From Synechococcales cyanobacterium M55_K2018_004 (lineage in GTDB: Bacteria > Cyanobacteriota > Cyanobacteriia > Elainellales > Elainellaceae): 34,137 bases of DNA. The stretch lies in the NCBI GenBank assembly GCA_015295905.1, contig DVEB01000336.1:1-34137 (forward strand), in the 5' to 3' direction. Under the pieces are notes generated by a model. The model had not been told where the DNA came from and ran no database searches. It saw only the letters and a program-made list of their open reading frames with translations. This document shows, piece by piece, positions 14,121 through 18,830 of the stretch; positions within the stretch are counted from its first letter, which is position 1, and each line of letters starts with the position of its first letter. The translations under genes and the position numbers were made by a program.

Positions 14121-14182
14121 AGTTGCCCGTCCATTTGTCATTTGCCTGCTATCCTTCAATTCTGAGTCGAGGAGTTACCAAC

Positions 14183-15508
14183 GTGTCAGCTTTTGTAAGC
14201 CGTCACCATCAGCCCATCAGTTCCGAAGAGCAGTATCTTTACGATCACCTGCTGTCGCGGATCGAGGTTGAATCAGCAGAGCAGATGATTGAGCGGTTCT
14301 ACGCTCTGTTTATTGACGGGTCTCGCTATCCAGAGGCAGATGTGTTGGCGGCTCTCGATGCAGTCACCGCTTCAAAAAATGCTGCGGAAGAGTTTCGCTA
14401 TGTTTTGAATCGCTGCTGCCACATCCTGATTAACCGTTGGCAAGCGCGATCGCAATCTCAGACTGCCATTCCCCGCCTCATTGAACTGTTTGAGACTGAA
14501 CCAGGCACCTCGGCAGCAGCCCTGCGGCGTCCCCGTGCCGTCCGCCGCCTGCGGGAACTGAAGCAGCAGTTCACCCAAACAGAACAGTACCTCACCCTGC
14601 GTCGTCTGGCCCAAGTGGTGAATCAGTCTATTGAGGCTAGTCAAAAAGCTGGCCAAAGCCCATTGGGGACTCTGATCCGCCGCTATCCCTACCTGTACGA
14701 ACACTGCTTGCTGAGTGAATATAGCGCCCTCGAACAGCAGCATACTGTCCGTCAGCTTCGCGCCACCATGCAGCACCAGTTTGAGGTAGATCTCTCCCAA
14801 TACATCACCTACCAGTTTCGGCGCGGGCAATTGAACCGCGAGTCCTCCAGTCGAAATGGGGGGGGACTGCCTCAGCGAGGGACATCATCGCCGACCTCGG
14901 TTGCCCGATCGCCAAAACCTGTCTCCAACCCCACTCTGTTGGATGACCATGAAGTGAAGCAAGCTGTTCAGCATTACATGGGTCGTGTTGAGGGCGATCG
15001 CTCCTACCGGGACTTGGCCTACCATTTCCTGGCCCAGAGTGGTCATTCTCAGACCTTTCGTGCTTTCAAGGATGACCTCTACGAATACCTAACGGCCTCT
15101 GTTGACGCGGAGTATGGTCGGCGGCAGTTTTACAATCAGCTCCATGCCCAACTCAGCAACTTGCTGCCCGAAAGCAATGGCAAACTTTTGAACGATCTCC
15201 TCCTCGTGCGGACTTGTAGCCAGCTTTTGAACTTTCTTGTGGTCGAAAGCCCGAAGAACCCGAATCATTTTGTCTTCATTGATCTGCTCAACAACCTTGG
15301 TCCAATTCTGACCACGGGGCTGTTGCTTAAGGTTGTGTTGCTCTGCCGTCGCGTTAAGCCTGTCTTAGAGCGGCGTGTCTCTATCCTGTTTAGCCACTAC
15401 GAGAGTTGCAGCCGCGATGCCGTGCAATGGCTGATTAACCTGCTCGAAAATCTGAATGTGGCCCTCAGTGCCCACTTTGGTTCCCTCAAACTGTCTCTTA
15501 TCAGATGA
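14183..15508 (+). CDS. Conserved cyanobacterial protein of unknown function
   Basis: Soluble, mostly helical protein of 441 residues. The first 110 residues (YDHLLSRIEVESAEQMIERF, LFIDGSRYP) and the C-terminal 170 residues form two compact regions, separated by a Ser/Arg/Gly/Pro linker around residues 215-250. I see no catalytic motif, signal peptide or certain membrane segment; LGPILTTGLLLKVVLLC near residue 400 is hydrophobic but embedded in helices. I have an impression of a widespread cyanobacterial family without a known role. The frame is open from 14123, but GTG at 14183 has GAGGAG about 8 bases upstream, so it is preferred. It converges with the ArsR gene, 18 bases apart. Confidence 0.8.
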   Translation: MSAFVSRHHQPISSEEQYLYDHLLSRIEVESAEQMIERFYALFIDGSRYPEADVLAALDAVTASKNAAEEFRYVLNRCCHILINRWQARSQSQTAIPRLIELFETEPGTSAAALRRPRAVRRLRELKQQFTQTEQYLTLRRLAQVVNQSIEASQKAGQSPLGTLIRRYPYLYEHCLLSEYSALEQQHTVRQLRATMQHQFEVDLSQYITYQFRRGQLNRESSSRNGGGLPQRGTSSPTSVARSPKPVSNPTLLDDHEVKQAVQHYMGRVEGDRSYRDLAYHFLAQSGHSQTFRAFKDDLYEYLTASVDAEYGRRQFYNQLHAQLSNLLPESNGKLLNDLLLVRTCSQLLNFLVVESPKNPNHFVFIDLLNNLGPILTTGLLLKVVLLCRRVKPVLERRVSILFSHYESCSRDAVQWLINLLENLNVALSAHFGSLKLSLIR

Positions 15509-15526: not shown

Positions 15527-15880
15527 TTATGGAGTTTTGCTGCTGAGGCTGAATGCGCGGAAGTATTGGGCTTGCTTTTCAATCCGAGCAGCGAGGCGAT
15601 CGCACACCAAGTTACACAACTCAAAACTCAACTCATCGGCGATACTGTAGTAAGCAGACGTCCCTTCGGTGCGCCGATTCAAAATGCCCGCCTGCAACAT
15701 AACCTTTAGGTGTTTCGATACATTGGCCTGACTAGTTGCAGTAGACTCGACGAGTTCCTGCACACACTTTTCTTGCCCCCGCAGGACATTAAGAATTTTT
15801 AACCGGGTGGGTTCACTTAAAACACTGAAGTATTCGGCAACCTGTTGGACAATTTCAGGCGGAATGACATCGGGATTCAT
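15527..15880 (-). CDS. ArsR/SmtB-family transcriptional regulator
   Basis: Winged-helix repressor of 117 residues. YFSVLSEPTRLKILNVLRGQ opens the domain, SQANVSKHLKVMLQAGILNR is the recognition helix region, and RRTEGTSAYYSIAD is the wing. Cys residues occur in EKCVQELV (helix 2-3) and in the C-terminal helix (FELCNLVCDRL); this resembles metal- or thiol-sensing members. The classical ELCVCDLC metal box is absent, so a persulfide- or redox-type sensor is possible but unproven. Start ATG 15880 fits the family; the frame is open to 15976. The promoter at 15912-15942 has a palindrome over its -10 box, suggesting autoregulation. Likely targets besides itself are not evident; the membrane fusion gene at 16287 is divergent, with repeats between. 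Confidence 0.88.
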   Translation of the reverse strand: MNPDVIPPEIVQQVAEYFSVLSEPTRLKILNVLRGQEKCVQELVESTATSQANVSKHLKVMLQAGILNRRTEGTSAYYSIADELSFELCNLVCDRLAARIEKQAQYFRAFSLSSKTP

Positions 15881-15911
15881 AGGGGTAAGCGTTGCAGGGT
15901 AAAGAGATAAC

Positions 15912-15942
15912 TTGATTATATCAATTAACCTCTGTATAACAA
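15912..15942 (-). promoter_or_regulatory. Promoter and operator of the ArsR gene
   Basis: On the minus strand: TTGTTA (15942-15937), 16-base spacer, TATAAT (15920-15915). The -10 box is the centre of the perfect palindrome TTGAT-ATA-ATCAA (15912-15924), which would let the ArsR protein block its own transcription. The leader to the ATG would be about 28 bases. Confidence 0.6.
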
Positions 15943-15954
15943 TTGAGTAATTAA

Positions 15955-16200
15955 CCGGAATCGATATCGACTCCACCGATTATTGGGTTAGTTATTGGGT
16001 TAGATGGTTGTCGTGTAGAACAGGCACTCGTTCTACACGACAACCACTTGCTAACGTCAGTTCGGGTTAAGCAGGTTTTGGGGTACCACGCACGACGCGG
16101 TGCCCCAAAACCTTTGCTATTCCGTGCGCGGCGCACATGGAACAGCAAAGGTTCAGCTTATTGAGAATTCATGTTACTTTACAGCCGGAGTCTGTATGAA
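15955..16200. repeat. Family-4 repeat interrupted by a family-1 element
   Basis: The left half has a 16-bp stem (GGTTGTCGTGTAGAAC at 16006-16021 with its complement at 16030-16045). The right half, ACTTTACAGCCGGAGTCTGT, resumes at 16176. Between them sits family-1 copy C (16052-16176). Joining the halves at TA restores GCTACTTTACAG, as in the uninterrupted copies at 1-58 and 12547-12558. Confidence 0.75.
16052..16176. repeat. Family-1 MITE-like element, copy C (nested)
   Basis: Full copy of 125 bases: TAACGTCAGTTCGGGTTAAG, hairpin TTTTGGGG...CCCCAAAA, hairpin TTGCTATTCCGTGCGC...GGAACAGCAA, end GAATTCATGTTA. Flanked by family-4 halves; TA at both ends is the expected target duplication. Confidence 0.9.
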
Positions 16201-16286
16201 AAATTAATCGTCGGCTGCTGCCCTTCGACGTAGCGTGAGAAAGGAAAGTGGAACGTACGTACCGCTTCTCAGGGAGGAAGTTGGCG

Positions 16287-18830
16287 ATGGAGTTGGCGGA
16301 ACGGGTCGCATGGTTGCGGCAAAACACGCAACTGGGGGTGTTGACAGAAGAGGTGCTGGCGGCGATCGCCACCCAGATCCAGGTCGAAACCGTCCAGGCA
16401 AACCGTCGTTTGGGATTGGAAGACACTCCCCCCAGCGCTTGTTACATTCTGAAGTCGGGCCACTTAGAAAGCTATCGCACGAGTCCTGATAGCCTTGCTC
16501 ATGTTTCCAGTCTGTTGCCGGGGGCAGTCGTTTATTTCAAGGAACTGCTGCTGGAGGAACCTGCCGAGCAAACTGTTAATACCCTGACCGACTGTGAGTT
16601 GTGGGTGATCTCCCGTGAGGCGATCGCCAGCCTAACAGCACAATACCCCGAAATTCGCCTCGCCTTTGCTCGCAAACTTGCGGCTGACCTCAACCAAGTT
16701 GCCTCCCAACTGGCCTTTGAGCAGGAACGCCAGAGGGTACTGCGTCCCTACCTTGTTCCCAAGGTGCAGCGGGGGATTGTGGGTGCCAGCCGCTACGCCG
16801 TCCGCCTGCGCCAGGCCATTCGTAAAGCAACGAGCGATCGCGCACCTGTCCTCATCTTTGGGGAGCCGGGGCTGGGCAAAGACAACATTGCCGCTTTGAT
16901 CCACTTTGGCAGTAAAGCGCGGAAACACCCCCTGATCAAACTGAACTGTGACACTCTGCAACCGAACGGAGCCGACTTGTTTGGTCGGGCAGGCGGCAAA
17001 CCGGGTTTGCTGGATTGGTTGGGGGAAGGGACACTCCTGCTCAACAATGCTCAAGACCTGCCCAAAACCATGATGGATGCAATCTGCCGCTTGCTCACGC
17101 AGGGGGAATACTTGCCCGTTGTGCGTGAGGGCGACCCTGCGCCCGAACCGCGTCGCTCGCAAGCGCGTATTATTCTCACTGCCGAGCGCACTTTGCCAGA
17201 GATCGAACGCGCTGTGAAGCACTCCATCAAGGTGCCGCCGTTGCGCGTGCGAAAAGCAGACCTGGAGGCACAAGCCAATTACTATCTAGCGTTGTACTGC
17301 ACTAGTCGCGGCTTACCGAAACCTGCGATCGCCCCTGAAGCTTTGCGGCGTTTGCAAGGATATGACTTTCCTGGAAATTTATCAGAGCTAGAGAGCCTGA
17401 TGAAACGGGCCGTCATCCAGGCCAATGGTGCGCCAGTTCTGACAGAGGAAGTCTTCTGGTCAGTTAGCTCCAAAGCACGTCGGTTTCGGGTGAATTTGCT
17501 CAACGCCTATCCCAAACTGCGGCAGTTTTTGCGGAGTCCCTGGTATCCCGACCGCATCAATTATGGATTCACACTCTGGTTCTTTGCTCTGGTCGTTGGC
17601 GTCTTGTGGTGGGGGCCGCAAAGTCGTGACCAAAACGTTGCGCTGAACCTATTTTGGGCCTGGTGGTGGATGTTTGTTCTGCTGGGCTATCCCTTTGTTG
17701 GACGCGTGTGGTGCGCCGTCTGTCCATTCATGATTTATGGTGAGGTTGCCCAAAAACTATCCCTCTGGTTATTTCCCCGCCAACTACTATCTTGGCCACG
17801 ACCAGCAGCCGAAAAGTGGGGTGGCTGGTTTTTGTTTGGCCTGTTTGCGTTGATCCTGTTGTGGGAAGAACTCTGGGATCTACCCAACACGGCTTACCTA
17901 TCTGCCTGTTTGCTGATGTTGATCACAGCCGGAGCGATTATTTTTTCGCTCCTGTTTGAGCGGCGATTCTGGTGTCGATACCTCTGTCCAATTGGGGGTA
18001 TGAACGGTATGTATGCCAAGCTAGCCATGATTGAGTTGCGAGCGCAGCAGGGGATTTGCTCCGCCAGCTGCACCACCTACCAGTGCTATAAAGGTGGTCC
18101 CCAAAAGGGCGAGGGTTTGGCAACGGAGGGATGCCCAATCTACTCTCACCCCGCCCAACTGCAAGACAACCGTGATTGTGTTCTCTGCATGACCTGTCTG
18201 AAGGCTTGCCCCCATCGTTCTGTAGAACTTAATCTGCGTCCTCCTGGCATTGAGCTATGGACAACCCACGAAGCGACTCCCCATGAGGTGTCTCTACTGT
18301 TCTTGTTGTTAGGCGCAGTGTTGCTGCATCGCCTGCCAGAAATTTTCGCTTGGTTGGGCTGGCCGATCTCCCTCCTGGAACAGGCCTGGATCCATCTAGG
18401 CGCATCTCTGGTTGCCTTGGCTCTGCCGGGGGCGATCGCTCTGCTAGCCCATCAAGTCCTGCGATTGCTGACCCCCAAATCTCGCCCCTTTATTGAACTG
18501 GCCTACGGCTATCTGCCGCTCGTATTAGGGGGCACCCTGGCTCATTACCTGCGTTTAGGGCTGACGGAAGCAGGGCAAATTATCCCAGTGACACTTGCCA
18601 CGTTTGGCCTCAGCCACGCCGGCCTGCCCGTGGTTGTGGCGCATCCGGCAGTCATTGCGTTTCTCCAGGGTGTGACGTTATTGGGGACGCTAGCAGGAAG
18701 TATGTTGCTGACTCAAAAAATTGGACGACACCCCTGCCATACTTTGTTGCCCCAACATCTTGTCATGGGTGCGATCGCTCTGGTTTTCTGGCAGGTGATC
18801 GTGGGCTGGTCAGGCAGCGTGTCCGGGTAA
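16287..18830 (+). CDS. CNB domain / degenerate AAA+ / NapH-like polyferredoxin membrane fusion protein
   Basis: Fusion of 847 residues. Residues about 15-140 are a cyclic-nucleotide-binding-type beta roll (CYILKSGHLESYR, LPGAVVYFKELLLEE). About 165-390 resemble the AAA+ core of sigma54 activators: Walker A FGEPGLGKD (192-199) and GYDFPGNLSELESLMKRAV of the lid. The GAFTGA loop is missing and Walker B reads GTLLLNNAQDLP without the Asp-Glu pair, so ATPase activity and sigma54 contact are unlikely; cyanobacteria lack sigma54. From about 415 on there is a NapH/NosR-like membrane module with VWCAVCP, FWCRYLCPIGG, CSASCTTYQC and a ferredoxin motif CVLCMTCLKACP (631-642), then four to six more membrane helices. 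ATG 16287 has GGGAGG 9 bases upstream. Predicted as a membrane redox protein with a cytosolic sensory head; the actual reaction is unknown. Confidence 0.85.
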   Translation: MELAERVAWLRQNTQLGVLTEEVLAAIATQIQVETVQANRRLGLEDTPPSACYILKSGHLESYRTSPDSLAHVSSLLPGAVVYFKELLLEEPAEQTVNTLTDCELWVISREAIASLTAQYPEIRLAFARKLAADLNQVASQLAFEQERQRVLRPYLVPKVQRGIVGASRYAVRLRQAIRKATSDRAPVLIFGEPGLGKDNIAALIHFGSKARKHPLIKLNCDTLQPNGADLFGRAGGKPGLLDWLGEGTLLLNNAQDLPKTMMDAICRLLTQGEYLPVVREGDPAPEPRRSQARIILTAERTLPEIERAVKHSIKVPPLRVRKADLEAQANYYLALYCTSRGLPKPAIAPEALRRLQGYDFPGNLSELESLMKRAVIQANGAPVLTEEVFWSVSSKARRFRVNLLNAYPKLRQFLRSPWYPDRINYGFTLWFFALVVGVLWWGPQSRDQNVALNLFWAWWWMFVLLGYPFVGRVWCAVCPFMIYGEVAQKLSLWLFPRQLLSWPRPAAEKWGGWFLFGLFALILLWEELWDLPNTAYLSACLLMLITAGAIIFSLLFERRFWCRYLCPIGGMNGMYAKLAMIELRAQQGICSASCTTYQCYKGGPQKGEGLATEGCPIYSHPAQLQDNRDCVLCMTCLKACPHRSVELNLRPPGIELWTTHEATPHEVSLLFLLLGAVLLHRLPEIFAWLGWPISLLEQAWIHLGASLVALALPGAIALLAHQVLRLLTPKSRPFIELAYGYLPLVLGGTLAHYLRLGLTEAGQIIPVTLATFGLSHAGLPVVVAHPAVIAFLQGVTLLGTLAGSMLLTQKIGRHPCHTLLPQHLVMGAIALVFWQVIVGWSGSVSG

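Follow-up and report, generated by a model that had tools for sequence, protein, structure and literature searches.

What does a protein do that joins a cyclic-nucleotide-binding (CNB)-type domain, an AAA+ domain of the sigma54-activator type and a membrane iron-sulfur module, in a group of bacteria that has no sigma54? Such a gene lies in the window analysed here, a stretch of 34,137 nucleotides from Synechococcales cyanobacterium M55_K2018_004 (contig DVEB01000336.1). On the best explanation of the data presented below, which is given about an even chance, the gene encodes a membrane oxidoreductase that belongs with NapH and NosR and is ancient in cyanobacteria. It would be an Fe-S electron-transfer protein linked to plastoquinone, with a non-catalytic head for regulation or docking, and a sister form (type II) would act in sulfur handling.

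An intact fusion of three modules

The gene is a single intact open reading frame of 847 codons and a stop (Table 1). The initial annotation had read three modules in one chain, and Pfam and NCBIfam searches recovered all of them: cNMP_binding (E value 1.5e-11), Sigma54_activat (1.9e-14), AAA_lid_14 (3.2e-11) and two Fer4_5 matches, with the NapH/MauN profile (TIGR02163, 1.1e-13) spanning the membrane part. Pfam detected no DNA-binding, kinase or other output domain in the protein. The AlphaFold2 model of the full chain has a mean pLDDT of 86, with a poorly defined Fe-S loop (residues 586-624), and a model of the membrane module alone reached a pLDDT of 85 and a pTM of 0.84; plasmid-collection sequences were left out of the structure-prediction alignment. 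Domain matches and models together show a layout in which a predicted cytoplasmic CNB-like roll, a helical linker and a non-catalytic AAA+ core with its lid are followed by four transmembrane (TM) helices with the CX2CP and CX3CP motifs, a domain predicted to carry two [4Fe-4S] clusters and about five further helices. The initial annotation had named a sequencing frameshift joining two genes as one threat to this reading. A frameshift fusion or pseudogene is ruled out because full-length relatives with 57-74% identity and strong conservation occur in many genera, including Gloeobacterales.

Table 1. Features of the fusion gene and its surroundings in the window.
Feature	Window positions	Strand	Basis
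Whole gene, type I of the family	16287..18830	+	ORF list, relatives
Shine-Dalgarno-like GGGAGGAAG upstream of ATG at 16287	16272..16280	+	Sequence
CNB-like beta roll, cyclic-phosphate Arg absent	16392..16646	+	Pfam, alignment, model
Pseudo-AAA+ core, sigma54-activator type	16776..17201	+	Pfam; Foldseek vs 3m0e, TM 0.83
Degenerate Walker A GEPGLGKD, residues 192-199	16860..16883	+	Sequence, family alignment
Walker B acidic pair replaced with NN, residues 253-254	17043..17048	+	Sequence, family alignment
AAA+ lid domain (AAA_lid_14)	17244..17453	+	Pfam
TM helices 1-4, NapH/NosR-like module	17541..17954	+	Structure models, NCBIfam
First Cys motif CX2CP (C476, C479)	17712..17726	+	Invariant in alignments
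Second Cys motif CX3CP (C563, C567)	17973..17990	+	Invariant in alignments
Eight Cys, C591 to C641, predicted double [4Fe-4S] domain	18057..18209	+	Invariant in alignments
C-terminal membrane region, ~five helices; E667, Y740, E761, Q794 invariant in 51 cyanobacterial sequences	18279..18806	+	Alignment, model
ArsR/SmtB-family gene, divergent from the fusion gene	15527..15976	-	
461-aa ORF beside the ArsR/SmtB gene	14123..15508	+	

A pseudo-ATPase head in bacteria without sigma54

The AAA part of the head shares its core and lid fold, and a GExGxxK motif, with bacterial enhancer-binding proteins (bEBPs: NtrX, NtrC1, PspF, NorR, FleQ); in structure comparisons it resembles NtrC1 (3m0e), PspF and FleQ, with a Foldseek TM score of up to 0.83 on the target (NtrC1). 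It differs from these activators in lacking their GAFTGA loop, catalytic Glu, arginine-finger segment and DNA-binding domain. Across 51 aligned family members, 42 of them type I, the catalytic Glu254, the GAFTGA loop and the FRxDLxxRL arginine-finger segment are each found in none, and sensor I is altered. Walker B Asp253 is replaced with Asn in 39/42 type I proteins. The same scan applied to 22 comparison activators found the GExGxGKE motif in all and a D-E Walker B in 20. These data bear out the view, first taken from the single window protein, that the domain is dead and has lost GAFTGA and the acidic Walker B pair, and they extend it to close homologues, where intact ATPase residues had been considered as a possible counter-indication. 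Judged by these residues, the whole family has a dead ATPase, and the head is incapable of ATP hydrolysis. Lys198 is invariant (51/51) and the type II P-loop retains GTGKT. The statement that Walker A is kept holds for the window protein itself. P-loop Gly197, however, is replaced in 30/42 type I sequences (by Glu in 22) and kept in 12, and a retained Walker A therefore does not imply retained nucleotide binding. A FleQ-type c-di-GMP site was also considered and rejected, as the Arg-Asn following Walker A, which we take to be the residues of that site in FleQ, is by eye absent.

The profile Sigma54_DBD gave no match above cut-off in 59 cyanobacterial genomes, while the E. coli, Bacillus, Caulobacter and Bacteroides controls were positive, in agreement with the initial statement that cyanobacteria have no sigma54. 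Among the matches listed for the 59 genomes, all Sigma54_activat matches better than 1e-11 are this fusion, bar one 495-residue protein. The exception, a canonical-looking sigma54 activator (E value 1e-74; genome G056, contig C856:542-1042) in a fragmented assembly of ~1230 contigs, is probably contamination, or transfer, since sigma54 was not found there. Because every relative examined carries a pseudo-ATPase and the 59 genomes have no sigma54 factor, the AAA+ domain is, on sequence grounds, repurposed, much as the proposed recruitment of an activator domain had it.

The initial annotation also saw a cyclic-nucleotide-type sensor at the N terminus. Its fold stands, as both Pfam and the structure model support a beta roll like that of CRP/FNR-type CNB domains; the sensor does not. 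The domain differs from CRP/FNR-type proteins in that the Arg of the phosphate-binding cassette is absent from the alignment of types I and II, no HTH is present and the CNB is dispensable, being lost in picocyanobacterial forms and in family f24 (L083, L085, L088, L089, L187-L191), which keep the pseudo-AAA and membrane parts. With that Arg missing and the domain lost in some lineages, cAMP sensing is unsupported and an unlikely role for the CNB. Family f25 (L114, L115) is a 1134-residue variant in which two tandem pseudo-AAA modules separate the CNB from the membrane part. As f24 and the picocyanobacteria lost only the CNB while f25 doubled the pseudo-AAA, the latter is, by these comparisons, the more constant of the two.

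A conserved membrane module and a probably ancient fusion

Like NapH/MauN and NosR/RdhC/CcoG, the membrane part has four membrane helices, a pair of CXnCP motifs and eight Cys of the ferredoxin type. Four Cys clusters had been noted in the window protein, and the groups are indeed C476/C479P, C563/C567P, C591/C595/C600/C616P and C631/C634/C637/C641. All 12 residues are invariant in type I, type II and the stand-alone homologues of Deinococcus and Desulfobulbales (including Desulfurivibrionaceae), so that the two CXnCP motifs after membrane helices, typical of NapH/NosR proteins, and the eight Cys for two predicted [4Fe-4S] clusters are common to all of them. TM1-4 with the Fe-S part is the most conserved stretch of the protein, with 79% conservation among type I proteins and 60% from one type to the other, compared with between-type values of 24% in the CNB and 30% in the AAA core. 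The helix order predicts that all Cys, and the head, are on the cytoplasmic side.

The family nevertheless differs from its nearest described relatives. Compared with NapH, the window protein scores well under the family cut-off (51.3 versus 213.05 bits) and its first motif is CX2CP; compared with the NapH/NosR group as a whole, the family has an extra C-terminal membrane region and no nap or nos genes nearby; and where NosR has an FMN domain as its head, this family has a cytoplasmic CNB-AAA head. The C-terminal region has no invariant His pair suggestive of heme. The module would bind Fe-S clusters, and a plastoquinone-linked role would follow naturally by analogy, because its NapH/NosR/RdhC relatives have in common a unit of four helices and two CX3CP motifs that serves quinol-linked electron transfer (PMC5928378). 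The module model had no counterpart among solved structures (no match in the PDB at E ≤ 0.001), and quinone binding is therefore a prediction.

The initial annotation considered the three modules rarely joined and proposed a survey of the architecture. The modules are as described, but the fusion is not rare: some match occurs in 211 of the 291 genomes of the class sampled, about 200 of them with E < 1e-100 and the remainder mostly weak, the figure of 200 being a count from the printed match table that includes a few strong matches of type II only (G002, G005, G027, G056). Fusion loci were named in Leptolyngbyaceae, Oculatellaceae, Pseudanabaenaceae, Oscillatoriaceae, Synechococcus/Cyanobium and Gloeobacterales, and the fusion was not seen outside cyanobacteria in the searched set. 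The few genomes of non-photosynthetic Cyanobacteriota listed in a search of the phylum outside Cyanobacteriia gave no match. A limited survey outside cyanobacteria, which included 14 genomes of other phyla, found the membrane part alone, encoded as a protein of its own, in Deinococcus (32% identity), Desulfobulbales, haloarchaea and Sulfurovum. These stand-alone '4Fe-4S binding proteins' of Deinococcus, Desulfobulbales and haloarchaea align over the whole membrane part, C-terminal helices included, but lack the CNB-AAA head. With stand-alone modules alone found elsewhere in this survey, the three-part fusion looks cyanobacterial and ancient. On a Deinococcus ficus plasmid (L121, 5042-7323), a gene for a His-rich, probably exported protein lies upstream of the stand-alone module, perhaps a hint of metal handling in this lineage.

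Each module is thus of a known kind. Literature searches turned up no description of this near clade-wide CNB-AAA-NapH-like architecture, nor a function for it, as the initial annotation had supposed. Public annotation misnames family members, for example as 'nitrogen assimilation regulatory protein'. A candidate relative is Synechocystis slr0593, which has been termed a 'cAMP binding membrane protein' (PMC3516471).

Gene context of type II and the proposed function

The host genome carries a second copy, 36% identical, on contig C170. This belongs to type II, a clade (SH-aLRT 100) nested with type I, which is why the fusion, on the tree, is older than the split between the types. The host's type II copy seems broken. 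On C170 its reading frame shifts near residue 433, the C-terminal piece contains an in-frame TAA, and both parts (C170:13-1776, L152; C110:10059-10475, L004) lie at contig ends; faulty assembly or decay of the copy may be the cause. Type II is absent from most genomes with type I.

The survey of neighbouring genes that had been suggested was informative for type II and not for type I. The cysteine synthase gene cysK lies downstream of type II on the same strand at 14 of 22 loci, several times only a few bases past the stop codon, and these loci represent at least 11 families (two plasmid hosts counted apart). By contrast, cysK occurs at 2 and SQR at none of the 77 type I loci (Fisher p ~1e-9 for cysK, kinship ignored). 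Other recurrent type II neighbours encode SQR, whose identity is backed by a match to a solved SQR, rhodanese, a YgaP-like TM protein, Rieske, psbA, a Tll0287-like protein, DUF302, an SBF transporter, cytochrome bd and nitronate monooxygenase. Type II thus sits in a recurrent, partly plasmid-borne sulfide/low-oxygen island (L119, L120, L152-L171); in three genomes (L156, L163, L168) a PF11266 gene (long-chain aldehyde decarbonylase family) adjoins it. Polysulfide increases the transcripts of psbA, petC, cysK2 and rhodanese in Synechococcus 7002 (PMC12466478), and cyanobacterial sqr genes are often near psbA and arsR (PMC5061849); a word search of both papers found no mention of such a cyclic-nucleotide-binding or 4Fe-4S protein. 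The evidence from this sister clade points to sulfide or sulfur metabolism, a direction the initial annotation had not anticipated.

At 77 loci type I has no conserved neighbours, no local operon and no linked nap genes, and its link to sulfur is therefore one of kinship only. The ArsR/SmtB-family gene next to the window gene, in which a Cys aligns with an SmtB Cys (ELCV), recurs at 1/76 other type I loci. The 461-residue ORF on its other side has no Pfam or NCBIfam match.

We propose that plastoquinol is the electron donor of the membrane part, or plastoquinone its acceptor, and that the Fe-S centres would relay the electrons to a redox partner in the cytoplasm. The head may serve as a platform for docking, for oligomerisation or for ligand-dependent regulation, and would determine when, and to whom, electrons flow. 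Type II, whose gene context suggests a coupling to the handling of sulfur when sulfide is present or oxygen is low, probably supplies or senses redox equivalents for a reaction feeding cysteine synthase, while type I would be the housekeeping version and may serve the same kind of chemistry.

A possible though doubtful alternative is a membrane sensor, in which the Fe-S part detects sulfide or the redox state of quinone and a partner receives the signal through the CNB-AAA head, with no electron flow to a substrate. The derivation of the head from signalling proteins (CNB and activator AAA domains), the stress-response island with regulators nearby and the initial proposal of NosR/RdhC-type proteins as transcriptional regulators (PMC5928378) are all consistent with this. 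Such a sensor would, however, have no DNA-binding or kinase/output domain; headless membrane modules exist elsewhere, and the electron-transfer Cys are all kept while the CNB can be lost. The CcoG/NosR group has a four-Cys-group layout, which the family matches. As CcoG is a cupric reductase (PMC8475189), a metal or cofactor reductase or assembly factor with a chaperone-like docking head might be envisaged, and the His-rich gene before the Deinococcus homologue would fit; this is unlikely, as no recurrent copper or metal genes lie near either type and the neighbours of type II are sulfur and photosynthesis genes.

The remaining readings carry far less weight. The invariant Lys198 and the GTGKT of type II would suit a working AAA+ ATPase with unusual catalytic residues, but the family-wide loss of the Walker B Glu, arginine-finger segment and sensor I, with Asp mostly Asn and the P-loop Gly mostly replaced in type I, makes this very improbable. 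An assembly or pseudogene artefact is refuted by the conserved full-length fusion, and its probability is practically nil.

Within the preferred reading, a plastoquinone-linked electron-transfer protein, a bolder proposal is offered tentatively and as doubtful: that a relic sigma54-activator part, in a group without sigma54, became the regulatory head of a plastoquinone-linked electron valve, with type II driving or sensing sulfur reduction towards cysteine synthesis in sulfide-exposed cyanobacteria. Such a protein, gated by a ligand or by redox state, would be an electron-transfer protein of a new kind. More broadly, the family is conserved across most cyanobacteria, where its members probably reside in the photosynthetic or respiratory membranes, and it shows that the ATPase of an activator can persist as a conserved pseudoenzyme once its RNA polymerase partner has been lost. 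Type II and its sulfide island offer a direct entry to the chemistry of the protein and to how cyanobacteria live with sulfide.
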